Of a stretch of DNA of 20,290 bases, positions 1,383 to 18,460 are shown piece after piece. The translations under genes were made by a program, and so were the position numbers. Position 1 is the stretch's first letter. The number at the start of each line of letters is the position of its first letter. The notes under the pieces are model-generated. The model did no database searches. It was given only the letters and a program-made list of their open reading frames with translations, and had not been told where the DNA came from. The stretch is taken from contig JAAOMT010000172.1 of assembly GCA_016748015.1 (NCBI GenBank), forward strand, positions 9,687-29,976. Direction: 5' to 3'. This DNA is from Geosiphon pyriformis. Its lineage: Eukaryota > Glomeromycota > Glomeromycetes > Archaeosporales > Geosiphonaceae.

Positions 1383-1860
1383 TTATGCATTTGTATTACC
1401 CGCCTCTACTGCTTTTGAATAGATTTGAAATGCTTTTTCCAAGTTTTTCGTTGTTCCCGATCCATTTCGATAACAAACTCCAAGATTGACTTGTGCATCT
1501 AAATCTCCCGCCTCTGCTGCTTTTGAATAGAGTTCAAATGCTTTTTCCAAGTTTTTCCTTGTTCCCGATCCATTTTGATAACACCATCCAAGATTGTATT
1601 GTGCATTTGTATTACCTGCCTCTGCTGCTTTTGAATAGAGTTGAAATGCTTTTTCCAAGTTTTTTGTTGTTCCCAATCCATTTTGATAACAAACTCCAAG
1701 ATTGTATTGTGCATTTGTATTACCCGCCTCTACTGCTTTTGAATAGAGTTGAAATGCTTTTCCCAAGTTTTTCCTTGTTCCCCATCCATTTTCATAACAA
1801 CGACCTAAAAATAATTGTCCAAAAGAATCTTTTGCTTTCGCTGCTTTCTGAAATTCTATA
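380..1860 (-). repeat. Tandem 108-bp Sel1 repeat array (about 14 units)
   Basis: The unit is 108 bases (36 codons), seen as a strictly periodic landmark, for example CCAAGATTG with its G at 728, 836 and 944 and so on to about 1700. Units alternate between a GNTNAQY type and a GDLDAQV type. A six-unit higher-order duplication is visible: 739-875 and 1387-1523 read identically at an offset of 648. Because the unit is a multiple of three, the opposite strand also shows long open frames; I regard those as shadows. Confidence 0.92.
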
Positions 1861-2129
1861 AATGCTTTTATTGGATTGGGGATAGTTCCAATCCCATGTT
1901 CTAAAGAAAAGCCAATCAAAACATGGTCTATTGAACGCTTTGAATTTTTATTATTCAAGCACTCGAATAAATCTTTTGCTGTTTTCTGATTTTGTTCAAG
2001 ATATTTTTTCACGAATTCAGCAACTTTTGAATAAGGATTATTCAGACCACTTTCTTTGATAACAATCAATGCCCCTTCAACCCAGTCAATGGGTGAATTT
2101 ACGTTTTCAATTGATGAAGTTGAAGACAT
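1383..2129 (-). CDS. Sel1-repeat protein, N-terminal part ended by a premature stop
   Basis: The ATG at 2129-2127 opens a 248-residue frame. I prefer it to an upstream in-frame TTG because it is the first ATG. Residues 1 to about 75 form a non-repeat leader (MSSTSSIENV..., with WVEGALIVIK). After it come Sel1-like repeats of 36 residues on the pattern KAFxLYSKAxEAGNTNAQ / YNLGVCYxNGxGTxKNLE. Sel1 repeats form paired alpha-helices used as protein-protein scaffolds. The frame stops at TAA (1385-1383), exactly where every sister repeat has CAA (Gln) or an equivalent Gln codon, and it continues open past the stop to position 1. The stop is therefore a nonsense change rather than a natural end. 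The intact part could still make a four-repeat protein. Family identity is secure; cellular role is unknown. Readthrough, a sequencing error or a spliced-out repeat remain possible. Confidence 0.8.
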   Translation of the reverse strand: MSSTSSIENVNSPIDWVEGALIVIKESGLNNPYSKVAEFVKKYLEQNQKTAKDLFECLNNKNSKRSIDHVLIGFSLEHGIGTIPNPIKAFIEFQKAAKAKDSFGQLFLGRCYENGWGTRKNLGKAFQLYSKAVEAGNTNAQYNLGVCYQNGLGTTKNLEKAFQLYSKAAEAGNTNAQYNLGWCYQNGSGTRKNLEKAFELYSKAAEAGDLDAQVNLGVCYRNGSGTTKNLEKAFQIYSKAVEAGNTNA

Positions 2130-2505
2130 GATTTTAAGCAATAAAATGGATTATCAAACTTCAAATATTTTGTATAGTAAAGAGGAATTTTTAAAGAGTT
2201 CAACTTGCTAATAAATAATGATTTCAATGTTAAATGACATTCAGGAAAAGGCTAGCCTTGAAGAGATCTGAAACGATAGAAAATTCGGAAAACAGACCCT
2301 TACTTCATCAAAGGCTAAATTTCCTCATTTACATTGCTTAAATGAGTAGAGATCGTCCGGGACGGAATTCACTATGCTTTCATTGTCTTATTGCTATTTT
2401 TAAATTTTAAATGAAAACCTAAAATTGATCTACACTAAACTAAGTGGTATGAAAAAACTTGAAAGGGGTTTTTTGTGGCTAATTGTATGCAAAGCTTTAT
2501 TTAAC
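2130..2505. other. Intergenic, presumed upstream region of the Sel1 gene
   Basis: AT-rich, with no open frame worth reporting. It should contain the promoter of the minus-strand Sel1 gene, but I see no confident core element. A short GC-rich palindromic patch (CGTCC G GGACG) lies near 2354-2364. It stands out in this composition but has no known role. Confidence 0.5.
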
Positions 2506-3741
2506 TACTTTAAGATAATCTCAAAAGATGGGCTAATATTTGATAAATTAAGTGATTTTACATTATAATACTGAAACTCAAAAAATAAAACTTTAAGGTC
2601 GGGCTTCAAGTATATATATTTAATTCGTAAAAATAAAAGTAACAATTTTTTATTAATTAAAAATATAAAAATATTAATAATGATTAATTTTTTTTGTATA
2701 CCAGAAATTTTAATAACTTTGTTTGAATTTAAAATAATCTATAAACTTTAAAAGATTGAAAAATTTAGGAAGAACACTTTTTTGCAGATTTTTTAATCAT
2801 TTATTTTAATCATAATCTTTTCATTATTTCGACGTTTTTAGGTTAATTTATTTATACTCAATTGATTAAAAGAAGTTGCTAAATTTTTATAAAATATCCG
2901 TGGTGCAGCAAGATGGAATAATTATACTTGAATGTTATCGTAATGAAAACTTTTTTATGTTTACACTTAAAGACACAGTTTCTTTAAACAAAGATAAAAA
3001 TTATAGAAATAACTTCCGTTTATCCTCTGAATTCTAGTTATCTTTTGGTAAAATATTATTATTATAAATAAGTCTCTAAATGATGTTATTGAAATAAAGA
3101 GGAATATTTTTAATGATATTTAAGTTAGTATATAGATCTCAATAACTTTATTTATGTATATTCAATTTTCATTTAGAACCTATCTTAATGAGTTAAAAGG
3201 AAACATGAAAATCAGTTTTTTCGTACCTTTTGCTACAACTGATGGAGGCTTTGGGTCTTATCAACTGGGCTACTACATTAGAAAAGAGCAAAGTTATAGT
3301 ATATATTAAGAATTTATCATATTTTTAAAAAAAAAACTAAGATTGAATAGGAACACATGCTTGCCTTTCGTGGATTTAATTAATTTTTTTATTCAGACAC
3401 TAGGTATCATAAATTGTTGTTTGTTATTATTCTAGTAATATTAACAGTTTTAAGTGGCTCTATTGTAGCAGTTAGTTTTAAATTTTAAGATTAAATGAAT
3501 AATTAATTTAGAAAATTAGTTTTGCAGTTGTTTCTATTATGCCAATTTTAGTTAATGTAATAGTCGACACTAAATTTACTCTAATAAATGGAAAAAATAT
3601 AAAATTTCCACATCTATATACCAAAGTAATTAATTTTCAATTTTGAAAGTACAAACATAATTAATTATTATATTCAGTATTATTTTTCTAGATATACCAA
3701 TTTTTTAATAGTGAACTGACAGGATTCATTAATATAATCAA
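2506..3741 (+). repeat. Left arm of a large inverted repeat
   Basis: The reverse complement of 11021-12276 matches this stretch almost base for base over long runs. For example, 3136-3300 pairs with 11461-11625 with only a few substitutions. The arm begins within sequence matching AAAAGATGGGCTAATATT and ends after GACAGGATTCATT. The main length difference is about 44 bases present at about 11901-11944 in the right arm but missing here near 2850. The arms are separated by about 7.3 kb. Confidence 0.9.
2772..3741 (+). pseudogene. Decayed copy of the nine-exon membrane-protein gene (left arm)
   Basis: Remnants follow the exon order of the gene at 4665-8057. Exon 1 similarity starts at the signal peptide (about 2772-3000). 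Exon 2 similarity lies near 3080-3130. An exon 3 piece follows a conserved CATTTAG acceptor (about 3179-3320), keeping ATTDGGFG but then jumping straight to the end of the exon. Next come a hydrophobic helix (about 3403-3485), an exon 8 remnant reading AVVSIMPILV and INGKN before GTAATT (about 3524-3640), and the start of exon 9 (about 3686-3741). Several stops and frameshifts are present. Roughly 500 bases of exon 3 and the exons encoding the distal ectodomain are deleted, so no functional product is likely. It carries the same lesions as the right-arm copy. Confidence 0.8.
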
Positions 3742-3911
3742 TAGGATAATGACAAGCATCGTTTTTGATGTAATGTAAATAATTTCTTGCCTTTTCGAGA
3801 ATGTGATTTAACAAAATTATAGTTTAAAATCCTTATTTATTGGCAAAAAAAACTCCTTAAAAATCCTTTTTACCCATACAAAATTGATAATTTATTTTTG
3901 GGCAGAAAATA

Positions 3912-4030
3912 ATTTCTTCAGCTTCATTAATTGAACCGCAATTTCATCTTTCGACTGGCTTGAAGGAGCATTGATTGTCATGAAAAAAAAATCAGACTAT
4001 TTTTCCAGCTAATATTCAAAAGTTGCTTTT
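3912..4030 (+). pseudogene. Relic of the N-terminus of a second Sel1-family gene
   Basis: This aligns with codons 1 to about 38 of the Sel1 gene at 2129. TCTTCA-xCTTCAT-AATTGAA matches its start; TGGCTTGAAGGAGCATTGATTG gives WLEGALIV against WVEGALIV; and TATTCAAAAGTTGCT gives YSKVA against YSKVA. It is broken three ways: the start codon is ATT, one base is missing between GAA and TGG, and a TAA interrupts just before YSKVA. Similarity fades after about 4030 and no Sel1 repeats follow. It lies on the opposite strand from the surviving gene, immediately inside the inverted-repeat arm. Confidence 0.75.
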
Positions 4031-4664
4031 CTCATGATGATTGTTTAAGAAAATGGTCAAAAAACCTTTTTGGAATTATAATAAAACTAATTTAGAAGTA
4101 GATTTAAGGAGATAATCGACAATATCTCGAATTAGATTTTTTTATCAAAAGAAGCTATAACTTGAAAAGTTTTGAAAAAGAAAAATGTATCATAAGATGA
4201 ACATAATCTAACTTTAAAATTATTATGATAAACTAAAAATAAACATAATAAAAATTATTTTTTTATGCGGAAAAGTAAATATCAGTTGCCATTTATGAGT
4301 GATTGCCAAGGCCCAAAAAAGTTATTTATGTTTCAATTTTATAATAAAAACCAATAGCCCCATTTTCTGGGAAGCTCGAAAGGGATGATCGCAATCAGAT
4401 CCTCAAAAAGAAAATGGGGTAACACACCTAAAAATTTATCAATGTTGAACAATTTCAATTTTTAATTAACAAATATATGTTTATAATATATTTATCTATC
4501 TAAATTACATAGAAAATAAGTCATGCCTTTTTTTACATTTTCTGTTTTCTTTTCGCTATAGTTTATTTTGAATAAAACTCATTAAATTCAAAGCTAATAT
4601 TATAAAAACAAACACAATCATTGGACTCATAATATTGATTTTAAATATTAGTTTTTCAAAAAGT
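4031..4664. other. Intergenic AT-rich stretch with one hairpin
   Basis: No supportable gene. CCCCATTTTCT (4358-4368) and AGAAAATGGGG (4409-4419) are perfectly complementary over 11 bases around a 40-base loop that is unusually mixed in composition for this region. It could be a small folded RNA or the remnant of a small element; I see no tRNA boxes. The right part is the downstream flank of the membrane-protein gene ending at 4665. Confidence 0.45.
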
Positions 4665-7600
4665 TTAGTTTAAACCTGTATTTATCAAGTCTAATTCATT
4701 CGTTTCCTCACGTGCAACTCGTGAAAAAGTAGTTTGATAATGGAACCAAATCAAAATACTATAAAGTCGATAAATAATATTAATTGTTAAAATAACTGAG
4801 CTCATAATGAGACTTATTATAGGAATAATATCGTAGGAAAAGGTGTTTTGATGGTAAATAACCTAGTTGCAATAATAGTAATAATAATATTATTAATAAT
4901 AATAATTGTAATATATTTAATTTGGTGAAGCGTCAAAATTTTGAAAAAAAAGGCTAAATCTTTGAAATCAAACCTGAATTACAAATTGTGGAATATCCTC
5001 AATAAAGATATTGATGGTACTACCCCAAAAGATCAAATCTTCAAGTCTTTTGGAAATCGGGGCACTGAAAAGCCCCAAGTTTGCATACTTTGAATGTAAA
5101 AGATTCAGAGCATCTATATCAGCGGCAGATAGTATAGTGAATAAGGCAGCGGGCTTGCCAAATTGCCGAAACCATACAACATATTCACTATTCATGCTAA
5201 TCTCATTGATTATGATGTATCCTGCCAGTCCTGTGTTGAAAAGAAGAGGTATTGCTAGAAAAATAATACTGTTCAAAGAAAACATATATATAAATTAATT
5301 ATCTTTGCTATTTTTGAATTTTTGATGCATTTACAATTTACAAATTAATTACCTTGGTAAATATATAAATCCCACATCTTTTCCGTTTTTTATAGTGAAT
5401 GTGATATCAACTATAATATCGACTAGAATTAATGTAATAGAAACAACTGCAAAGCTATTACCCTAAAATTAGTAAAAGTTATTAAAATATTTATTTAATT
5501 TTAAACTTTAAACCACAATAATTATCCCAATATAACTGCAAAAAAAATAAATCAAATACCCTGGGATTTTTCTTTTTTCCTATAAAATATAGTCTCATTA
5601 ATATTATTGCAATAATAGCAATTGCAATTAGATGAAATTTATATTCATTCCAAAAATTTGCTAAAAAAGTTATTAAATGATATACAGTTTAATAAAAATT
5701 AATTAATGAAGATTAATTCATTCTCGCTTACGTTTAACTTGGAATCCAAAAGTCTCATCTAAAAAGCCCGTGTGTGAATAAGTGCTAATGGGAGTGAACC
5801 ATTTATTCTCGATTAATGCATTAAGGTCATGTGCAATTTCCATTGGATTTCTAGAATCACTTGTTGAAGAAATTTGAAGTCGTAATATTTCTCGGCCTAC
5901 TGATTCTGATTTCGACTTATCAGTCTTATGATCAATAATTTTGATACGACTTCTTTCAACTGGAATTGTAAAAGATAATTGATCTTCAAGTGTTTTGAAA
6001 ACTTCTCGTTCGTTTTTAATTTTGTTGAAATCCGAGAAATTTGTATTCAGACGTAAGAGTCCAATCAGGGTAGCTTTAAATCAACAACAACAATCAATAT
6101 TATGTATTTTAGTTAGATAGGGACCTTAAAAATTTACTAATTGAAAATAAACAATAAACCTTCTTACCTGCATGTTTGCTTTTTTTCCATCTTAAAGCAT
6201 TCAAACGAAATGAAAAAACAAACAAACAAACGAATGAATGAATGAATTATTAATCTTTAAAACAAAATTGTCAGAAAAGAAAAAATTGAAAAATATGTAC
6301 GTTTACCTGTTTTAAATTGCCATATATTTCTATTAATTCCTTTAATGGCTTCATTATATTGAGCATCTTTCACAAAATTATTATTGACGACAATAAAATA
6401 ATCTTTATCCGGTTGATTAAATGTGCTTCCAAAAACATCCACTCTAATAGTTCTATTATCCATCTCCACATGACAATATTGTGACTTTGCAGAGATACTT
6501 TGCCTCAGAATTGGTTCAGTTTCATTGTTTTGATAGATAGAAATATTATTATTCGAAAATGCGATTTCCACGAAATAATTAATCGTTATTTCTCGCGCCC
6601 CAAATGGAATCTTTTCGTTTAGACGAGGGTAAGTAGTAATGATAAAAGGATTTTCATATCTAGTGTCTGTTCAAATAATAATAAAATTAATTAAAATCTA
6701 CCAACAGCATCATTCCATTTAATCTTACTAACCTTTTTTTGAAAAAAATGGTAAATTTTTAGTATAGACGATGACTTTATTCACGTCAAATGTAGCAGCC
6801 CAGAAAGTATTGTTTGATAAGATAGTAGAGAGATAACCTTCATCCAGATGCGAGATATTCCATGAATCATTCTTAACTCCATTTTGATCATATAATTCTA
6901 TAGCAAATACTACATCTTTCACGATTAAAGTTTTATTTAATAAACCACCATAAGCCAGTGAGATTGTAGTAGTGGAATCAGCAGAAAATTCTTTCGTGAT
7001 GTATTTTAATACTGCCCCACTTCGAAGAAATGATATTTGGCTGTTACTCAGGCGACAATAATATCCCACAGCATTTATTTGAGCATCGCAATCAATCCAA
7101 GTGGCATTTTCATCATTTTGATGGAGTAGCAAATGAGGACCAAAATCAGCTGTTTCTGGCTCCCAAAATGTAACGTATACTGAATATGTCGTTATGTTTG
7201 TATTGAGACCAAATTTAGCCAAATATGCTAATCCGAAGCCACCATCGATTGTGGCAAAAGTTGAATAATCCACAAAACTCTCTTTTAATTCAAGCTTTTC
7301 AAGCATTTTAGGACCAGATATTGGTTTGATGTTTTCGTTGGAATATGTTCTAAATGTAAATTGAATGCATAAGGTTATTTCTTTAAAATTCATATTTAAT
7401 ATTATATATAATGTATATTAACTTACGGAGCATTAAAAACAATCCATTCTATTTCAGAACTGTTCAATTCAATTCTACAAGTCTTTAGAAAATTTTTATC
7501 TTGTTGTATATTTCTTGTTAACCGACAATCTATAACATTGCTGTCTTTAATTAGATCTACATCACTGTATAAAGTGTTATGTATTATCAATATAAAGTTT

Positions 7601-8057
7601 TTTTTTTAAAATTAAGAAGATTTTATGTTTAAGAGTTATTTGACAAAAACCTTTGAATTAATGTTCCATTCCACAAAAATAGTTTCCTTCGTTGTTGATC
7701 ATAAGAAGTCACTAAAAGATAATTAGAGTTTAAAATATCAACAGAACGTTGTCCACGCTTATCTCTATAAGCATTGTAGTTATTTAGAGAAGCTGTGCCA
7801 TCAGGTGTAAACTTGAGAAAGGAATATTGATACGTATTATTATAAATGCATAAATTTGAAAGGATAATTGTTCTATCTTGTTGGGCCAATAATTTATAAA
7901 AGGTACAAGTTCCCTTGAGATCAATTTTATACACCGTTTGATTCATTGTTAGCGATATAGAACTCTTGGTAATTGAAATAAAATAAGTTAAAAACATCCA
8001 AATAATCAAAAGGTATTGATTAAAAAATATGGTTAAGAAAAACTGCTTCATTTTCAT
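4665..8057 (-). CDS. Secretory-pathway multi-pass membrane protein with a large ectodomain (nine exons, 855 aa)
   Basis: Exons on the minus strand: 8057-7651, 7564-7427, 7349-6733, 6666-6307, 6073-5732, 5660-5560, 5462-5353, 5268-4974, 4862-4665. They sum to 2568 bases, exactly 856 codons with the TAA at 4667-4665, and all junctions are GT-AG with matching phase. Residues 1-30 look like a signal peptide. Residues about 30-620 form an ectodomain with many NxS/T sites (e.g. NQT, NGT, NKT, NRT). Hydrophobic helices lie near 630-648, 657-680, 692-714 and 801-820, with further hydrophobic stretches near 730-745 and 768-785. Between the helices is EDIPQFVIQ, faintly like the E-x-x-P-Q motif of XK-related proteins; this is weak. 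It resembles an expanded family I associate with arbuscular mycorrhizal fungi, function unknown, perhaps surface sensing. Intron 4 (6074-6306) is the least certain junction. Confidence 0.8.
4871..4912. repeat. AAT/ATT microsatellite in the last intron
   Basis: An imperfect run of AAT and TAA triplets that switches to ATT midway, inside intron 4863-4973 of the membrane-protein gene. Probably a neutral simple repeat. Confidence 0.8.
6216..6248. repeat. Compound tetranucleotide microsatellite (AAAC)n(GAAT)n
   Basis: About four AAAC units run into about four GAAT units within the longest intron (6074-6306) of the membrane-protein gene. Slippage here may explain why this intron is two to three times longer than the others. 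Confidence 0.8.
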
Positions 8058-8267
8058 CTTAAAAAATTTGTTATTTTTCTTTGTAAAATAATTTTTTGGA
8101 TTTGTTTTCGGTTCTCACAAAGTTTTTTAATCTCTTAAATACTTTAATTATAGAAAATTTTAAAATTTAAATATAGCTAAAATGATATTCATATAATGTT
8201 ATGTATTTTGTAAATATTTATTATTAGAATCCCTATGGAAGATCGATCTCAAGTCTGATAATCTAAC

Positions 8268-8313
8268 TACCTTTCCTATTACCTTTCATATTCCCTTTCA
8301 TTATCCCTTTTTT
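8268..8313 (-). promoter_or_regulatory. Pyrimidine-rich tract with repeated CCTTTC
   Basis: Four near-copies of a CCTTTC/CCCTTTCAT motif occur within 46 bases about 215 bases upstream of the start of the membrane-protein gene. On that gene's sense strand the tract reads as purine-rich. Such tracts are common in fungal promoters. The role is inferred from position only. Confidence 0.3.
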
Positions 8314-8585
8314 GAAGTTAACCAAAGCAAGATTTAAAATTTATAAAAATTAGCCTATTTAAGTGAATTGAATCAATCCATCCATCAATCCAAAAATGTG
8401 AAACCAACTTTTTAGTTTTTTCTAATAATTGGGCGGAATTCCTTTTATAAAGATTTAAGGCTTAAATCTAATTTACCGTATCATAACATTCGAATCTTTC
8501 GTAGCGTGGGGTGATGCAAAAATACTAAAAAATGGATAGATCACAATTATTAATTAACTAATCAAATAATTATGTATGGTTTGGG

Positions 8586-8612
8586 TAATAATAATAATAA
8601 TAATAATAATAA
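8586..8612. repeat. TAA microsatellite
   Basis: About nine uninterrupted AAT/TAA triplets. It creates an asparagine run in a spurious open frame starting at 8572. Confidence 0.85.
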
Positions 8613-8705
8613 AATACAGTTAATTTTAAATATAAACACAAACATGAAATTTCTAAAATTAATTTATCAAAAAGGTGTAAAAATAAAATATCTGAACTAT
8701 ATATA

Positions 8706-8739
8706 CACTATCAGCTATTCGACACTATCAGCTATTCGA
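8706..8739. repeat. Perfect 17-bp tandem duplication
   Basis: CACTATCAGCTATTCGA occurs twice head to tail at 8706-8722 and 8723-8739. It is a simple recent duplication with no evident function. Confidence 0.9.
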
Positions 8740-10929
8740 CCTTCTCTTTTTTGTAATTTTTTTTAGTCTTTATATGTTATCTTTACTTTTTACTTTTTTT
8801 ATCTTTCTTAATTTATTTCATCATTATTCTTTATTTAAGTCTCGAAATTAGATTCTTAATTATTTGTTTGATCGCTTAATAAATACACAAAAAGTGACAT
8901 TTTCTGCATATATTTTCCCATTTGTTGCCAAAAAATCTATTTTTATTTCATATCTGTTGAACTAGATTAAAAATGTAATCTTCAATGAAAAATATTTATT
9001 CATCCTATTTTTCTTAAAAATAGAACTTATAATCAAAAGAAATTTTAATTAGTTTCCCCATAAGTCACTTCTCATATTATTTACCGATTCTATAAACAAT
9101 TAGGTAATGATTTAAAATTCTAAACCAACTTGAAAAAGCAATTTCAATGAGAATAATAAAGAATTTCATTTCTAATTTCGTTTTAGCCTAAAAAAAGTTT
9201 GTTTTATAATAAGTAGTTTAAAAATTATAGATATGATGCAGCTGTCATTTTATGAGATAGATAAGCATAAATCTTAAAGTCTGTATTCACAACCTATTTT
9301 ATTTACTTTAACAAAAACCAATAACATCATATGCAATAATCTTAATATCTTATATACATCGAATAAGCCATTAACTTCTTCCAAGAAAGAAAAAAGGGCC
9401 AAGAGAATCAGTGCAAGCTAAAAATTGTATGATTATAGTTGGGAAAAGCATGATTGTTTTATATAGTAAGTTAGAATTTTGTAATTTCTCCTATATGAAT
9501 CTGCCAAGTTTTTTTTTAAATCACTAATTCTAAGATTCTTTTCCAACCCTTTTATCAGAAGAATAATCTACAAGTCCAATCCTATTCGTACTTGACCTCA
9601 ATAAAACTAAAACGAATATGGCCCCTATTACAATTTCTTTCCTTAGAAAACCCAACTTCCTAAAACTCATTTTCTTGAGATGGGAACAAAAAAAGCAAAG
9701 GAACAGCAAAAAGTCATCATACAAGGCAGCACCAAAATCACAGCCTAATCTGGTAGCTTTTTGATTAGGTTTAATTTTAAAGTAAAAATAAAATATGATC
9801 TCATGGTTGATTTGATTTGTAAAAAATGCCTAATGGATTTTTAAAAACAATTTCACATTGAATGTTTAATACATATAAATATATTAAGCATATAATGGAA
9901 ATTAAGGATAAATATCAAATTGATTTTGGTAATTGTCAGAAAATATTAATTTATTTATTGAAAAAATATTTGATTAATCAATGATAAATTAATTTATTTC
10001 TGAATATAGAGATAATATAAAAAAATTATTTTTAATTAAAAGCATTATATTTTTATTCTTTTTTAATATCTTATGCATATTTAGTTAAAAAACTAATTTA
10101 TCTCGCAATTATCGAAAGCTGTATTAACAAGTGATTCATCAACTTTGATTCTAAATTAAAAAAGTTTGCTATGGTGATGATTGGATACTTAATTTTCTAA
10201 TTGATGGCTTTGTATATACGGGGGTACTTTACATGAGCATGAAGTAATTCTTGAATTTTCCTATTGTTTATTGAAAAAAATACTTCAAAAGCCAGACATC
10301 CGTTATAATTTTTTTTCAGGATATCAATCCAAGAAGTTTTTTCACATTATTGTATATCCAGAATTTGATTGGAATATGAAAAACGTTATAAAGAATCATA
10401 ACTTAATAATAATACAAAATGACTCGAATTTAAACAAACAATTTTTCTTCTTTTATAATAAACTTTTGTTTTCCTTTAACTTTGTGGTAAAATATTTTAA
10501 AATAACGCTTAGAAATATATTTAATAATTATGTATTTTATATATATTTGAAAGTGCTACTAATATTGAAATTATTAATCCCAAGATAATTTTTATTTAAA
10601 ATTGAAAAGGGTTAACCTAAATTATTGTATATTTTATGATAGCAAGGCAATAAAAATATATTAAGGTTTCTCTAATTTGGTTTTTTACAGATTTTTCTCA
10701 AGATTGGAATAAAAGTTTTAGGGAATACATAAAAATTAAACAAAAAACTGTTTGTTAGAAATAAAGTTTATTATTATTTGAAATCAATTTTGATTGCTGA
10801 CATAAATACTCATTTCAGTTTTTTGGACTGAATAACCAATAATTTTTTATAAAATATTTTCAAGTTGGAAACTTTTAACTTAAATATGAAATCGCTTTTA
10901 ACAATAAAAAATAAAGTTGAAATATTACT

Positions 10930-12030
10930 CTACCTGATATCGGTGGCAAAGAGTAGAGTAAATAAAGCATTACACTTTGAATAATAAAATATAGTATTTG
11001 GTTGTTGATAAGTTCTGTTATTATAATAATGAATCCTGTCAGTTCACTATTAAAAAATTGGTATATCTAGAAAAATAATACTGAATATAATAATTAATTA
11101 TGTTAGTACTTTCAAAATTGAAAATTAATTACTTTGGTATATAGATGTGAAAATTCTATATTTTTTCCATTTTTTAGAGTAAATTTAGTGTCGACTATTA
11201 CATTAACTAAAATTGTCATAATAGAAACAACTGCAAAACTAATTTTCTAAATTAATTATTCATTTAATCTTAAAATTTAAAACTAACTGCTACAATAGAG
11301 CCACTTAAAACTGCTAATATTACTACAATAATAATAAACAACAATTTATGATACCTAGTGTCTGAATAAAAAAATTGATTAAATTCACGAAAGGCAAGCA
11401 TGTGTTCCAATTCAATCTTAGTTTTTTTTAAAAAAATATGATAAAATCTTAATATATACTATAACTTTGCTCTTTTCTAATGTAGTAGCCCAGTTGGTAA
11501 GACCCAAAGCCTCCATTAGTTGTAGCAAAAGGTACGAAAAAACTGATTTTCATGTTTCCTTTTAACTCATTAAGATAGGTTCTAAATGAAAATTGAATAT
11601 AAATAAATAAAGTTATTGAGATCTATATACTAACTTAAATATTATTAAAAATATTCCTCTTATTTCTATAACATCATTTAGAGATTTATTTATAATAATA
11701 ATATTTTACCAAAAGATAACTAGAATTAAGAGGATAAACGGAAGTTATTTCCATAATTTTTATCTTTGTTTAAAAAACTGTGTATTTAAGTGTAAATTTA
11801 AGAAAGTCTTCATTACTATAACATTCAAGTATAATTATTCCATCTTGCTGCATCACGGATATTTTATAAAAATCTATCAACTTCTTTTAAATCAATTGAG
11901 TATACCATTTGATATATTGATTGTGATGATTAATTCTTAATAATGGAAATAAATTAACCTAAAAACGTCGAAATAATGAAGAGATCATGATTAAAATAAA
12001 AGATTAAAAAATCTACAAAAAAGTGTTCTC
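10930..12030 (-). pseudogene. Decayed copy of the membrane-protein gene (right arm)
   Basis: Read on the minus strand, similarity to the intact gene at 4665-8057 begins at its signal peptide (about 12030), where ATTTCGACGTTTTTAGG matches ATTTGGATGTTTTTAAC. It passes through exon 1 pieces, exon 2, the CATTTAG acceptor and the ATTxGGFG piece of exon 3 (about 11500-11580), then the single-helix piece (about 11275-11360) and exons 8 and 9. It runs further than the left copy: 10930-11020 keeps a frame-damaged version of the exon 9 segment that reads ALFTILSAADI in the intact gene. It lacks most of exon 3 and the distal ectodomain and contains several stops. It also retains about 44 bases of exon 1 lost from the left arm, so it is the more complete descendant. 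Confidence 0.8.
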
Positions 12031-12276
12031 CCTAATTTTACAATTTTTTAAGTTTATAGATTATTTTAAATTCAAACAAAATTTCTGGTATACAAAAAAA
12101 TCAATCATTATTAATATTTTTATATTTTTAATTGGTAAAAAAATGTTACTTTTTGTTGTTGCGAATTAAATAAATCGTATTCTTGAAGCCCGACCCTAAG
12201 TTTTAATCTTGAGTTTCAGTATCATAAAGTAACTTAATTTATCAAATATTAGCCCATCTTTTGAATTAGCTTAAAT
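11021..12276 (-). repeat. Right arm of the large inverted repeat
   Basis: Inverted partner of 2506-3741. The outer limit is where similarity fails beyond AAAAGATGGGCTAATATT on the complementary strand (about 12276). The inner limit follows the shared GACAGGATTCATT (about 11021). By eye the arms differ by only a few percent over their best parts, far less than either differs from the intact gene lying between them. Confidence 0.9.
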
Positions 12277-13939
12277 GTAACATATTAACTTGATCTGAAT
12301 AGCTAGATGGCTAATTAATTTTTTATTAATATTTTAAGTTTTTTTTATTCTTATTTCTTGTCTGCTGCATTATTTGAAACATAAAATCAATTTCCCAAAT
12401 TTTGAAACCTATCAAAATCAACTTTTTCTAAAATCAAAAATCAATTATGAATAGAGCATATATTTTAAAGAAAAGGATAATTTTTGCAAATGGTTCTTTT
12501 TTATTTGGGATTTGAAAAATTTTTCAACAGCCAGAAGTTGATTATATTTTTAAATTATGAAGCAGATTTAATCCTGAATTTGAATAAATGAAAGGAAAAT
12601 TGAACATTCTAAACTGCAAAAAATAGTTGTATCGACAATGATAAATAGTAATAAAAAAAATTGCATTATTATTTAATTAATAAAAAAATATTTTTTGAAT
12701 AAAAGATTTGATAAGCTTTTAAACTTTTTGCTTATACATTCATAGCATATATTTTTTAATTCAAATTCAAAATTTTTAAGATCCTCTTGTTACAGTAAAT
12801 AAAGCCATTTGACATTTCGCATGAATTAATGGCTTATTACTTTCTGTATCTTACCACAATTGAAATATTGGTGACAATTAAGTTAATAATCATTTATTAG
12901 TCAATTTAGTATACGGTTATTATAAACTTATTTTTCATTATTCATTCTAGAAATTTTTTTGGGTGGGATTTTTATTGCTAATCAAAAATCTCAAATGAAA
13001 CAGTCAAAAGATGAAAATTTATGATAAAATTTTGGAATAACAAAAATTAGCCAGAGATTGTCAAAAATCCGTCTGAGAGTTAAGTTCATAGTTGATAGAT
13101 AGAGTTTTTGAAATTTATATAATGTAAATATCATTAAAAATATATTTTGCTAAATTTTTAATTTCATTTAGTCATTCATTTATTTATTACCTTTATAACG
13201 AACTTTTAAAACAAATAAAAATTTAATAAATTTGGACTGAAAATTAAGATTTAGAATTTTCTAATTTGAATCATAAATAAAAAATCTATTATAAAAGGGT
13301 TGGCTAGATTATCAACAAAAATACTTATAGAATGTTACTATTCGATCTTTTGACTTGATGGTTCCGATTTTTTTACTTGCCACTTTTCATCATTTGTTTA
13401 CTTCAGATTTTAATTTCCTTAAAGCTCAGTGTTTTTATACACATATTTCTTTGAAAAATGAATTTTAATTTGAAAGTATTAACAAGATTTCATCTATTCA
13501 GAGTTTTTATGCTAATTTCCATGGTAATTTCGATAAGTTATAACTATTTATCTAAGTTAATAATTTCCTGTGGTGTCAAGATGAGATCGATCTTTGCACA
13601 TTGCTTTGTCAGAAATTCAGCAAGATTCCCATGGCATTTGATTGTGTTTTCGAGAGTTTTACATAAGATAAGCTCTTATTTAGAAGATGTTCTTATTAGC
13701 TGTTAAAAGGATTTTGGTATATAATATAAAAATAACAGTTAACCTGATAATAGACAAACAAATAACTAAATAAATAAATGATAAAATCCTGTTTTTTACT
13801 AATTCGCAAATCTTCTGAACGAAAATCATTGGTTATAATGGTAATTTGCTGATTATCTCGGAACATAGTAAATTGCTGGTAAAAAAATTTAAATCAGATA
13901 ATAAACTATGAACCCAACCTAGGTGTTTTGAAGAGAATA
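12277..13939. other. AT-rich intergenic region upstream of the lipase-like gene
   Basis: Mostly low-complexity A/T runs with no homology I can recognise. It contains one small ATG-initiated open frame (13458-13706, listed separately). The last 200 bases before 13940 should hold the lipase promoter and any leader; I see no convincing core element. Confidence 0.5.
13458..13706 (+). CDS. Small hypothetical ORF (82 aa) with a hydrophobic N-terminus
   Basis: This is an ATG-to-TAA frame that I do not recognise. Residues about 14-28 (FRVFMLISMVISISY) are hydrophobic enough for a signal peptide or anchor. The rest is basic, with three cysteines (ISCG, AHCF and a C-terminal Cys). Base composition here is slightly less AT-rich than the surroundings, and the frame is longer than its neighbours. 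It lies 230 bases upstream of the lipase-like gene on the same strand, so it might also be a leader exon or part of the promoter. Weak support. Confidence 0.2.
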   Translation: MNFNLKVLTRFHLFRVFMLISMVISISYNYLSKLIISCGVKMRSIFAHCFVRNSARFPWHLIVFSRVLHKISSYLEDVLISC

Positions 13940-15403
13940 ATGAATTCTTTCAAAGTTTTTGCGATAAAAAGCTTCATGATATTATGGAGAAAAAAAATTA
14001 TCTTTTTAATACTTATATACTTTGCATTTTACTTTTGGTCACATGAAAATTCTAAAAGCTTGATAGTTTCTCATCAAGCTCTAAAAATTCAAAATTTCTA
14101 CAAAAAGGATGGAAATCTCACTTTTCCCATCGTGGTTAATCGTAAAAACCAAAATAAAGTTTCTTTCCAATTCAATCGAATCACAAAACGATCTCAATCG
14201 CTTCCTAAAACTTTAATAAATTATAAAAAAAGTTTATTACCGCTTTATAAAGAGTTGGCACACCTTGCAAGTGATTCTTATTGCAATTTAAAAAGTGGGC
14301 CCATAAATGGTTTGATCTTTTCAGAATAAAACAATTGATTTAGATCCACTTCATATTAAATATTATTTTTTACTATTTATCTTAAATTTTTACTTTTTAG
14401 TCAAATTCGGATTTGTTACTAATAAAGAACATCATCTGATTTTTGTTGTGTACTTTGGAGGACCAGTAATTATTTCTCATTTTCTGAAATAGCATGTCAA
14501 AATGAAATTCACTAAATAAGAATTTCTTGATTTTATTCTTAGAAAATAAAAAAGATTTCCTGGCGCACTGAAATTGATAGACAAATTTTATTTCAAGTGA
14601 AAGGCTTCCCAACATTTGACGATGATGCCCGGGTTAATAAACTATCCTTGGAAATTGTTGAATCCATGTTTCCCAGAATTTTAGGAACTATACGGGAATT
14701 TTTAAATACAAATTCCAAGATAAAGCACATTTTTTTCGTTGGGCATGCTATTGGTGGAGGTTCGAGAAACTAGGATTTTTTTTTTTAGTTTTCATAGTAA
14801 AAATTTGAAATACTTTTATATTTCTGAAATACCTAGGATACGCCTCAATCGCTGGTGTTCGATGGGCTATCCAGAGATATGATATTACTGCTTCGAATTT
14901 ATGGCCTGAAATAGATATGGGTAATATTGGACAACATGTTGTCACATTTGGAGCTCCCAGAATTGGAAATAGCCGATTCAGTAAATTTGCAAATAGCGTA
15001 ATTTCACATCATCGCATAACCCATGGAAATGACCATGTCCCACACTCTCCTTTAGATCCATTAAAGTGGTATCATTTTGGGTTTGAAATCTGGATTGAGC
15101 CATTAGAAAATTGCAATTGTCCCGATGATGATGTTAATTTTGAATCATATTCATATTGGGATTGTAATAATCAATTATTTGAAGAGGAACAAAGACAAAT
15201 ATGGCTTGAATATTGGACTAGTGAGAATATGGTAAGTTTTATTTAAATAAAATCTTTTAGACCGATGAAATTTGAAGAAATCTTTTCTTTAGGAGTGTAA
15301 TGGAGGACAATCAATCATCAACGTTCCAGATGATTTGTTCCATGACGGGCCTTATTTCGATGTTAGAATGGGTGATTGTAGTCAATTTTTGAAAAGAAAG
15401 TAA
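13940..15403 (+). CDS. Class 3 lipase-like protein, probable pseudoenzyme (catalytic Ser replaced by Ala)
   Basis: Five exons: 13940-14309, 14401-14465, 14543-14759, 14837-15231, 15293-15403. They sum to 1158 bases, exactly 386 codons with the TAA, with GT-AG junctions and matching phases. The start is the first ATG (MNSFKVF); a TTG four codons upstream is not preferred. Residues about 20-36 are a hydrophobic signal or anchor. Lipase_3 landmarks follow in order: LASDSYC (about 110), HHLIFVVYFGGP (usually FRG), the nucleophile elbow VGHAIGGGYASIAG with Ala214 in place of Ser, VTFGAPRIGN, HRITHGNDHVPH with Asp283, HFGFEIWIEPL, and FHDGPYFDVRMGDC with probable catalytic His366. Active members cleave ester bonds of acylglycerols. 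With the nucleophile missing, a non-catalytic role or early decay is more likely. The cysteine-rich segment usual between SYC and the FRG strand seems shortened. Donors of introns 1 and 3 (GTTTGA, GTTCGA) are weak. Confidence 0.85.
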
Positions 15404-17339
15404 AAATATGGACTATATTTTCAGAAGGGTGACACAAAATTAAGAAGATTTTTTCCAGATTAAAAATGACAACGATTATTTTTCCCCGTTAAACATAATA
15501 AAAGTAACTCTTTTTATTGAAAAACAAACCCTTTCTTTTATAATTCCTTCAACACGTTTTGGATTGAATAAATAAATTTAAAAATTGTTTCTAATGGAAT
15601 AAGATTCCAAACAGTAAAAACTTCTCTTCTAAGTCAGTTTCTGTTTATGGCTTTCAGTTTTGGTGAGTCCAATTTTTAACTTGTCTTCACATATTTACTA
15701 TTGGATTAAAGATCTGGCGCTATTGGAGTTTTATTTCTCTGAAATATTGCTTCTTTGGCTTTACCAATCATACATGAGGTGTTACATCTATATTATGAAA
15801 TTTTCTATAAGAATCGGTGCTTATAAAGAATTCGTCTGTCAAAGAATTGGTTGCTAATCCTCTTGGTTCCAATGCTTATAGATTTAACCATTTAATTCGG
15901 TTTACCTCATAATCCTTTGTTTTTTATGCATCTATCATAATATATGTATTTAAAAAATTTATTCAATTAAAAATTGTCAAAAATTTGAAAATTCATGCCA
16001 AGTTACATTCACAAATTAAAACAACTCTAATTTTACTCTAATCGAATGCAAAAATTTGAAATTAAATGCGTTAAAAACGCAAATTTTGGGAAAAACTTTT
16101 TATTCTAAATTTTATTTATTAAATATAATCAGCTTAAAATTAATAAAAGCTATTTGTAATTTTAAATATCTAATTCAAAAATCTTTCTTTTTTTATAATG
16201 TCACTTATTTTATTGTTTTTACTTATTAATTCCGAATTTAAATTAAATCAAAGATTTATTTTTTGATTAACTAATAAATCAAAATCAATTTTATTTGAAA
16301 ATTTTGTCTTTGATATACAATTTTTAAATATTTTTTTAAAAGTATTTATAGAAAATATACAGATATATTTTAAATCACGTTTTTTTTGTGCATAAATTAA
16401 TCGAGGTATTTATTGATTTTATACAAACAATACTATTTGATTGTGCTTCTATTTGCAGCAGTTAATATCGCAATTCCAGCTGTGTCAACTTTGGAATCAT
16501 ATGGAATGATATTTTCTTGCGTAAAATATTTTCCATTAAGTCCTTGTCAGAATTATGTGAAAACGTTTTTCATGAAAAAGAATTTTTTTGATATTTTAAG
16601 TTTTATAACTAGACATGTTTCTTATGATGTGTTTTAGTTATTGCAGATTTATATTGGAATGTAAGATTACAATATATTGTATGTTCAAAAAAAATTTCTA
16701 TACAAAAGTGCACAGATATGATAACATAGAGCCATCGATTATTAACAAAAATAACGTGGTCGCATAATTTTAGCCGTCCCCTGTGGAAGGATAATAATTA
16801 AATTTTTATTATTATTCAAATAAGAGCTTTTTTCAATTTTATTAAGTAAATAAAAGACGCAATTAATTCAAAAAATTGATAGTCTAGATGTTTGATAGAT
16901 AAGCTAATAAAAGAATTTAGTATGAAGGGAGTTAGAAAAAGAAGATGAAATTTACGCTTTAAAAAACAGGGGTATTCGTTTAACGCAATAAAGGTCTGTT
17001 TCAAAAAAGGAAGGGGGAAACATCTATTGGACTCGGGTAATTTGCCTTAATGTTTGGAGGCGCTTTCGGCTATGAAATATGAACACCATGTTCTTTATGC
17101 TGTGGCCATTTACATTATTCAGTCTAGTGTATTAATTTTTGCATAAGAGATATGGGTCCCACGGTTTTAAGGGTGATGTGAATTTGATTTCCCATACTGA
17201 TTGTATTTAGCCATTTTAGGATAGCCGAGTCAAAAAAAAATGAGTCATGAGGATCTGCTTAATATTACGTTGGTCATGAGGATCCGCGTAATAATATAAA
17301 AAATTTCTAGAAAGTACTAAGGTTTCAAAAAATGACGCT
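15404..17339. other. AT-rich intergenic stretch downstream of the lipase-like gene
   Basis: No supportable gene. The first 150 bases are the 3' flank of the lipase-like gene. An open frame without an ATG start at 16413-16637 looks like a secretion signal followed by a short Cys-containing tail (see findings). From about 16750 the composition becomes more mixed, leading into the GC-richer block. Two direct copies of GTCATGAGGAT at 17244 and 17273 are noted separately. Confidence 0.45.
17244..17296. repeat. Short direct repeat, period 29
   Basis: GTCATGAGGATCTGCTTAAT and GTCATGAGGATCCGCGTAAT occur 29 bases apart, differing at a few positions. It lies at the entrance of the GC-richer block and may belong to it. 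Confidence 0.7.
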
Positions 17340-17669: not shown

Positions 17670-17874
17670 CACAGCAGGTCTCCAAGGTTAAAAGCCTCCA
17701 GTTGATAGAACAATCCAGGTAAGGGTGTTGACGTATCTCTTCTAGCTCTAAGTGTTGAGTGAGGGAGGGGGGCATCCTTTACCGGAAAAAATCCCAACCT
17801 TAACCGAAGAAACTCAACCAAGCGCGGGGTTTCCAACTCCTTTATATCGCCAAAAGTGGTGTTCTCTAACCACT

Positions 17875-18085
17875 GTGCATGCACCCATTCTGCTGAATGT
17901 CTGTTTTCACTTATGGTCTATGACATGAATTGTTATACCTTTGTGCATGTACCCATTCTGCCGAATGTCTGCTTCCACTTACGGTCAATGACATGAATTG
18001 TTATTTAACCTCTGTGCTTGCCGCATTCCAGCTAAATGTCTGTTTCCACTTATGGTTATTGATGTGCATCATGGGTTAAACTCTT
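17875..18085. repeat. Three imperfect tandem units of about 68-71 bp
   Basis: Units begin at 17875 (GTGCATGCACCC), 17943 (GTGCATGTACCC) and 18014 (GTGCTTGCCGCA). Each carries AATGTCTG, then CCACTTATGGT or a variant, then a TGACATGAATTG-like segment. The third unit is the most diverged. Confidence 0.85.
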
Positions 18086-18334
18086 CCTATCTACTATCTA
18101 GTGAATGGACTGAGCTTGGCAAAATCAGCGGGAAAAGAAGACCCTAATAAATTTGACACTAGTTTGACACCAATAATTGACGGATAACCATCACCCACCA
18201 ATAATTCGCAATTCAACATTCGAATAACCAATGAATACGGAATAGAAATTCATGAAAAATCGATCATCAAATAACTGAATTAAATTTTAGGATTAGGTGG
18301 TGAGGAATTGATAATTGTTAGTCTGTTATTTATG

Positions 18335-18460
18335 TCTTGCAAGAATAAAAAGTGGGAGGGGGGTAGTTTAAGATTTCTTACAAGAATGAAAAGCGGGAGG
18401 GGGTAGTTTTAGTTTAAGATTTCTTACAAGAGTGAAGAGCGGGAGGAGGTAGCAGCATTT
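18335..18460. repeat. Three G-rich tandem units of 41-46 bp
   Basis: Units start at 18335, 18376 and 18422. Each reads TCTTxCAAGA, then GAAxAGxGGGAGG, then a GGTAG tail. Adjacent G runs separated by a single A give each unit partial G-quadruplex character. Confidence 0.85.

Follow-up and report, generated by a model that had tools for sequence, protein, structure and literature searches.

The stretch of DNA analysed here, 20,290 nucleotides from Geosiphon pyriformis that are referred to as the window, contains an open member of a repetitive orphan gene family lying between two inverted copies of a decayed relative (termed arm A and arm B), together with part of a Sel1-repeat gene. The features that enter the argument, with other contigs denoted by a C and a number, are the following.

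1383 to 2150, minus strand: Sel1-repeat gene, 5' portion, close to the outer end of arm A (Pfam PF08238, E 9.4e-53).
2509 to 3738, plus strand: arm A, a truncated copy of the dead lineage and the likely daughter of arm B (1154 of 1208 aligned positions identical to it); its inner end adjoins gene-unit DNA.
3738 to 3739, no strand: inner breakpoint of arm A, the junction being aligned with C157, C326 and C189.
3739 to 9752, no strand: gene unit (the gene and its flanks), a segmental duplicate by alignments of the window with other loci at about 73-86%.
3786 to 3989, plus strand: fragment resembling the 5' end of a Sel1-repeat gene (72% to 2051-2255, in inverted orientation).
4665 to 8057, minus strand: open nine-exon gene of 855 codons (gene model with GT-AG introns).
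10163 to 11019, minus strand: 3' continuation of arm B's copy, absent from arm A (754 of 838 positions identical to C189).
11020 to 12275, minus strand: arm B, the same dead copy and the likely parent of arm A; its copy continues past the inner end, collinear with C189.

The enclosed gene is the intact relative that a first-pass annotation of this DNA had placed between the arms. Its protein has an N-terminal hydrophobic segment, a long middle part and C-terminal hydrophobic segments by hydropathy, and searches of Pfam families and of PDB sequences returned no match to it. The gene and its flanks form a unit that is present wholly or in part on five contigs (C157, C44, C120, C326 and C189), of which only C189 carries a dead copy among the arm-A matches listed, C44 and C157 ending inside or close to the unit. 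Because the unit recurs on five contigs and the dead copy is listed on one of them, the enclosure of the gene by the arms need not, on these alignments, mean anything. On C189 the matching junction is followed, after about 1.3 kb, by the dead copy, in the orientation opposite to that of arm A, an arrangement which suggests that gene unit and dead copy were neighbours before, with an older local association of the two as a possible reading. The small fragment at 3786-3989 stands head-to-head with the Sel1-repeat gene across arm A.

Self-comparison of the window recovered the inverted arms to within 3 bases of the limits given earlier (2506-3741 and 11021-12276), at an identity of 95.5% (BLAST E = 0) and with a longest perfect common run of 97 bases. 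The arms are separated by 54 substitutions (28 transitions and 26 transversions) and by 14 insertion or deletion events amounting to 70 bases, among them 43 nucleotides that arm B has in common with C189. Since both arms match the intact gene only in blocks of about 66-80%, they resemble each other much more than they resemble it, and the suggestion that their mutual identity might be no higher than their identity to the gene can be set aside. Their description as 'nearly identical' fits the inner half (3101-3738, with 19 substitutions in 638 positions and no indel) and fits less well at the outer end (2509-2860), where 22 substitutions in 332 positions are joined by 11 indels. The term 'young' holds in a relative sense only, with a divergence of 4.5% between the arms as against 9.9% between arm B and C189. 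Measured against C189, the two arms evolve at similar rates: over 900 sites, 17 are unique to arm A, 13 are unique to arm B, 70 fall on the branch between C189 and the arms, and two differ in all three copies. An allelic copy of the locus was considered and rejected, since, arm B aside, no long match to arm A is better than 81% (C189); a genome search for a continuous second copy of 12277-17000 found none, and returned only relatives of its parts.

Both arms descend from a gene that was broken in characteristic places. The two internal deletions described by the first-pass annotation are present as it had drawn them: in exon 3 the sequence passes from the GGFG motif (codons 218-221) directly to codon ~363-365 with a change of frame, and the beginning of exon 4 is fused to the first C-terminal helix, near codons 624-642. 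The exon-3 joint recurs in four of five dead copies (A, B, C189 and C372), the fifth (C303) being unalignable upstream of it, and the joint between exon 4 and the helix recurs in all five; the copies on C372 and C303 are interrupted upstream by runs of N, such that their joints are visible only in part. Arm A, arm B and C189 carry stops and frame changes, including a premature stop at codon 25 that is common to all three. Two smaller deletions, of about 58 and about 13 nucleotides, are confined to arms A and B, the corresponding sequence being wholly or partly kept in C189, C372 and C303. Because the large joints and the stop are common to copies on other contigs, with two further small deletions private to the arms, the large deletions are best read as predating the pair, and the order proposed earlier, of decay first and inverted duplication later, is upheld by this distribution of lesions.

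The ends of the arms indicate how the pair may have arisen. Arm A stops abruptly at 3738 within gene homology, at a point unrelated to gene structure, and the outer and inner flanks of the two arms differ; arm B's copy goes on from 11019 to about 10163, some 0.86 kb past the extent of arm A, and remains collinear with C189, its identity to that copy being 90.0% beyond the arm end and 90.1% (851 of 944 positions) within the arm. The inner flank of arm A aligns with C157, C326 and C189, all of which continue without the dead copy at that point, and its outer flank (2150-2508) is upstream DNA of the Sel1 gene, which is not contiguous with the gene unit at other loci. Since arm B's copy extends past the arm end in collinearity with C189, B is likely the parent and A a truncated daughter; arm A could also have been complete at its origin and have lost its 3' end later. 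A processed (retro-) copy is ruled out, because the copied part contains intron sequence as well as about 270 bp of DNA lying upstream of the region homologous to exon 1.

These observations make it probable that dead arm B was copied in inverted orientation, as a DNA segment, to give arm A. A full-length ancestor within the membrane-protein family would have suffered deletion of the central part of exon 3 and of the stretch from exon 4 to exon 6, would have been dead thereafter, and would then have spread to several places by DNA-level duplication. One descendant, represented by arm B and its 3' continuation, would have acquired the two further small deletions, after which an inverted copy of about 1.23 kb of it would have been placed some 7.3 kb off, on the downstream side of a gene unit that is itself a duplicate and belongs to another branch of the family. 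We infer that the copy was made from B to A, by end-joining or by template switching during replication. The open gene probably lies between the arms as a bystander, and no evidence for a function of the arms was found in this analysis.

Alternative origins must be weighed against this inverted segmental duplication. The contig is short (29,976 bp), the window reaches its end, and the sequence to the left of the window consists of N, all of which might allow a fold-back or chimeric contig to have produced a mirrored arm. Fold-back chimeras yield almost identical arms, and the substitutions and indels that separate A from B (including the 43 nucleotides common to B and C189), the extension of B beyond A, and the differences between them in both flanks render such an artefact barely credible. 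The pairing of inverted arms around a gene also recalls a mobile element, whether of a fold-back or MULE type with the arms as its terminal repeats and the gene as cargo, or in the form of a transposon-captured gene fragment in each arm; Mutator-like elements lie near expanded gene families in Rhizophagus irregularis, according to PMC8647823, and an AT-rich 46-nucleotide pair (72%) lies 0.2-0.4 kb outside both ends of B's copy. But each arm is a fragment of a gene that contains both exons and introns, and no terminal inverted repeats were found at their ends among all 14 inverted-repeat pairs around A (the longest of which is a 61-nucleotide Sel1-Sel1 pair) or the 25 longest of 53 around B. 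Nor do arms and interior move together, the arrangement on C189 being different and the other gene-unit contigs being without a listed dead copy, and the mobile-element origin is accordingly rated as very unlikely.

Two further proposals concern what the arms might do. Inverted arms of 1.2 kb at this identity are suitable substrates for recombination, and they might exchange sequence or invert the interior, such that both orientations would exist in populations. The low divergence and lack of indels in the inner half hint at exchange, as does the sharply stepped divergence within two further local inverted pairs from the same family, and the change-point in divergence between A and B was equalled in 482 of 10,000 permutations. 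But with C189 as outgroup the other branch shows a similar tendency (50 of 678 sites in the inner part, 20 of 222 in the outer), so that variable rates may suffice for the pattern; the divergence between A and B does not require exchange, and gene conversion between them is not claimed. Nothing in this single assembly indicated that the interior has inverted; the longest arm-A matches in it after B are diverged copies on C189, C372 and C303, and exchange or inversion is on balance a doubtful explanation. The other proposal, that a read-through transcript would form double-stranded RNA and feed small RNAs that silence the family, draws on 33 matches to Piwi domains in the genome, on the perfect 97-base run, and on the one Dicer-like and many Argonaute-like genes attributed to R. 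irregularis in PMC6399891. It would require transcription to continue for nearly 10 kb, through the gene and its flanks, and the longest exact word common to the arms and the enclosed gene is 19 nucleotides; exact runs beyond that length occur only with three dead-copy loci (29-54 nucleotides) among 16 loci compared. No 21-mer of arm A (0/1210) or arm B (0/1236) matches the enclosed gene exactly, three from each arm match with at most one mismatch, and 20 (A) and 18 (B) do so with at most two. Because no exact 21-mer is common to arms and gene, small RNAs directed from the arms against the family appear a weak idea, and a hairpin-RNA locus is highly improbable.

The structure is then, on the reading of an inverted segmental duplication, real but ordinary for a birth-and-death family. 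Newborn gene duplicates in Caenorhabditis elegans, as outlined in PMC2728529, include adjacent inverted and partial duplicates, and are contrasted there with yeast; the present case resembles them in being local, inverted, partial and made at the DNA level, and differs in that the copied sequence had become a pseudogene beforehand, the arms lie 7.3 kb apart, and another family member is enclosed. R. irregularis has expanded orphan, Sel1, kinase and PIWI families, some beside Mutator-like elements, according to PMC8647823, a setting with which the many Sel1 repeats, the Piwi domains and the repetitive orphan family found here agree, whereas no element ends were found at the arms among the pairs listed. 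Nothing on a membrane family that diversifies, on pseudogenes or on gene conversion in fungi of this group appeared among the titles and abstract openings listed or in passages of PMC10234402, which does not prove that no such work exists.

Comparison of the open family members adds a result that reaches beyond the arms. In comparisons without a filter, exons 1-3 reach dN/dS of about 1-2, and exons 4-9 remain near 0.4. Some values run against a fast N-terminal part. Under the strictest filter, which by design takes out variable stretches, exons 1-3 fall to 0.55 for window and C157, 0.53 for window and C44 (interval wholly below zero) and 1.38 for C157 and C44 (interval including zero); the intactness of C157 is uncertain because its exon 7 donor reads TT in the alignment, and C44 runs off its contig. 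Taken singly, exon 3 has a dN-dS interval above zero in one of 17 pairs, exon 1 has dN/dS above 1 in five of 12 (with two intervals below zero), and exon 4 in five of 13. By these estimates the N-terminal exons stand at dN/dS near or above 1, depending on the filter, and the C-terminal half is constrained; the family may be evolving rapidly on the side that faces outward. A bias in the orientation of local copies cannot be claimed, since, among exon-3 matches separated by less than 20 kb within a contig, two pairs are inverted (C368 and C333) and two are direct (C383 and C207), in a count that omits matches resembling pieces of one copy.

Multigene surface-protein families combine diversifying ectodomains with gene conversion, and the family described here, as a putative surface family, resembles them in its constrained C-terminal part, its fast N-terminal part, its pseudogenes and its paralogues with stepped divergence. 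It is possible, and proposed only tentatively, that the family consists of surface membrane proteins in which diversifying selection acts on the N-terminal ectodomain, and that local inverted partners, live and dead, reshuffle ectodomain exons by conversion; inverted local duplication would then drive a repertoire of birth, death and conversion that might serve recognition in a mycorrhizal fungus, with arms A and B as a burnt-out instance. The arms themselves show that the copying of a gene can continue after its death, in this case nearby and as an inverted duplicate. The family-level side result outweighs them in importance: if the dN/dS contrast and the stepped pairs hold across isolates, a membrane family without a Pfam match would become a testable candidate recognition family.

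Self-alignment of the window recovered the inverted arms described in the first-pass annotation, in which two broken copies of a membrane-protein gene enclose an intact relative:

2509-3738, + strand: arm A, as aligned with arm B
12275-11020, - strand: arm B, as aligned with arm A

The arms were identical at 1154 of 1208 ungapped columns (54 substitutions and 14 indel events), and were closer to each other than to the enclosed gene, as had been proposed, since they match that gene only in blocks, at approximately 66-80%. The substitutions were unevenly distributed (22/332 in 2509-2860, 13/238 in 2861-3100 and 19/638 in 3101-3738), and the last of these intervals contained no indels. The enclosed relative (8057-4665, - strand) was open, its 855 codons being distributed among nine exons separated by GT-AG introns. 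In the upstream part of the arms, a stretch of approximately 140 nt (window 2612-2778) was 70-73% similar to short matches on contigs C393, C384, C367 and C114.

A genome search with arm A listed 34 matches, of which the longest after the arms themselves were dead copies on contigs C189 (81%), C372 (79%) and C303 (76%). Two joints characterize the five dead copies (the arms and these three): (i) a fusion of codon ~221 (GGFG), out of frame, to codon ~363-365, seen in four of the five (A, B, C189 and C372); and (ii) a fusion between the beginning of exon 4 and the first helix of the C-terminal part, seen in all five, the upstream part being interrupted by N runs in C372 and C303. A stop at codon 25 was common to A, B and C189, and two additional small stretches, wholly or partly kept in C189, C372 and C303, were missing in A and B alone. 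Because the joints and the codon-25 stop are common to copies on other contigs, while the two small losses are confined to the arms, the dead lineage predates the two arms, which are sisters among the copies found. The earlier ordering, with decay preceding inverted duplication, was right, with the correction that decay also predates the dispersed dead lineage, and not just the two arms.

The copy in arm B extends beyond the arm, from 11019 to approximately 10163, collinear with C189 (754/838 identical) and at the same level of identity as inside the arm (851/944). Arm A terminates at 3738, directly next to the flanking part of the gene unit (the enclosed gene with its flanks, 3739-9752); on C157, C326 and C189 that flank continues without a dead copy at A's junction, and no more than short AT-rich matches occur, near C326. 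Since B continues collinear with C189 and A stops where the flank runs on elsewhere, B was likely the parent and A its partial inverted daughter. A further 43 nt kept in B and C189 were lost from A, and a comparison of A, B and C189 across 900 sites assigned 17 changes to A, 13 to B and 70 to the other branch, with two sites different in all three. Inverted duplication of this sort is of a known kind: PMC2728529 describes newborn duplicates in C. elegans as frequently adjacent to each other in inverted orientation, with approximately half of the young pairs being partial or chimeric, and arm A is similarly an inverted, partial copy.

The interior between the arms is a separate segmental unit; window 3739-9752 aligned wholly or partly with C157, C44, C120, C326 and C189 at approximately 73-86%, and among these five contigs the arm A search listed a dead copy for C189 only. 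There, the gene unit is truncated at its 5' side, and the dead copy lies approximately 1.3 kb past the unit's Sel1-like fragment:

C189:4806-6797 and 8756-10000 (within L001, a stretch of C189), direct orientation: 5'-truncated gene unit and nearby dead copy

Because both stand near each other on C189, they may have been neighbours before; the mirrored enclosure was observed in the window only. Arm A is flanked by the 5' parts of two divergently oriented Sel1-like sequences (2051-2255 and 3786-3989, 72%).

It had also been suggested that the arms might drive inversion of the interior or supply hairpin small RNAs against the family. The arms are in principle adequate as inversion substrates; neither the A/B divergence pattern nor the C189 comparison contained a trace of exchange between them beyond what rate variation could explain. 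The longest exact word between either arm and the enclosed gene was 19 nt, and exact 21-mer matches were absent (0/1210 for A, 0/1236 for B), with three in each arm at up to one mismatch (3/1210 and 3/1236), and 20 in A and 18 in B at up to two. Among the 14 inverted-repeat pairs listed around A and the 25 longest of 53 around B, none was located at the arm ends; one of 46 nt (72%), rich in A+T, was found 0.2-0.4 kb beyond the copy in B.

The window (C265:9687-29976) extends to the right-hand end of a contig of 29,976 bp, one of 406 in an assembly of 124.7 Mb; contig DNA to its left is N, and G+C within window 2,000-17,000 is mostly 21-32%. Sel1 repeats are abundant in the genome (2002 first-look candidates, 150 of them scored), and Piwi domains gave 33 exon-level matches. 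These features are consistent with an arbuscular mycorrhizal fungus like Rhizophagus; comparable Sel1/PIWI expansions are reported for Rhizophagus irregularis (PMC8647823). The window itself contains a Sel1-repeat gene with 108-bp units (275-2150, - strand), which may contain an intron or be broken, because its 5' open frame stops at 1383 and the repeats go on in another long frame. Also present are a class 3 lipase-like gene (13883-15246; PF01764 at 14809-15246) with many DNA relatives on other contigs (approximately 66-83%), and short direct repeats of ~68 and ~43 nt (17860-18452) within a higher-G+C stretch.

Querying the genome with the window gene's exon-3 frame yielded 41 matches. Of these, 16 had internal stops, not all of which are lesions since the query includes some intron at its ends. 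Among 24 stretches retrieved, two additional local inverted pairs were identified:

C368:333613-336057 (+) and 340016-337745 (-): inverted pair (stretches L017 and L018), 2059/2178 identical
C333, near 337013 (+) and 353623 (-): inverted pair (stretches L019 and L020) with a divergence step

Divergence stepped from 3.4% to 15.3% in the C368 pair and from 9.2% to 0/470 bases in the C333 pair, with change-point LLRs of 36 and 38, each reached by 0/500 shuffles. Four comparison pairs (three across different contigs and one direct pair ~130 kb apart) gave LLRs of 8-17, reached by 1, 0, 0 and 0 of 500 shuffles; the difference is one of degree, the change points of the comparison pairs being significant too because N-terminal exons are generally more diverged. 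Each of the two inverted alignments is cut off at one end by an N run (in L018 from 3517, in L020 up to 2532), so the C368 copy may extend further than is visible, and an assembly cause for both pairs is possible.

Unfiltered dN/dS in exons 1-3 was 1.03 (window-C157), 0.97 (window-C44) and 1.96 (C157-C44), and among these three comparisons the dN-dS interval was above zero only in C157-C44 (0.025 to 0.111); exons 4-9 gave 0.37, 0.37 and 0.40, respectively. With gap-adjacent codons dropped, the exon 1-3 ratios were 0.89, 0.88 and 1.84 (the C157-C44 interval still above zero); with poorly conserved stretches also removed, they were 0.55, 0.53 and 1.38, and under this strictest filter the interval lay below zero for window-C44 and included zero for C157-C44. 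In single-exon comparisons, restricted to dS 0.02-0.35, the ratio exceeded 1 in 15 of 17 pairs for exon 3 (10 copies, median 1.23), 5/12 for exon 1, 5/13 for exon 4, and 0/9 for both exon 5 and exon 8; since these comparisons include overlapping pairs and partial copies, relaxed constraint can account for part of the high ratios. Identity between the window gene and C157 was 79-85% in exons 1-3, 90-96% in exons 4-9 and 89.5-99% in introns. Across the window gene and its C157 and C44 copies, exons 1-3 were thus less conserved than the introns.

The encoded protein, which matched no Pfam family and no PDB sequence, contains a single N-terminal hydrophobic segment and several C-terminal ones, and all 14 of its NxS/T sites precede the C-terminal segments; these features fit an exposed ectodomain. 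What is worth following in this family is its fast-evolving N-terminal part, together with its stepped inverted pairs.
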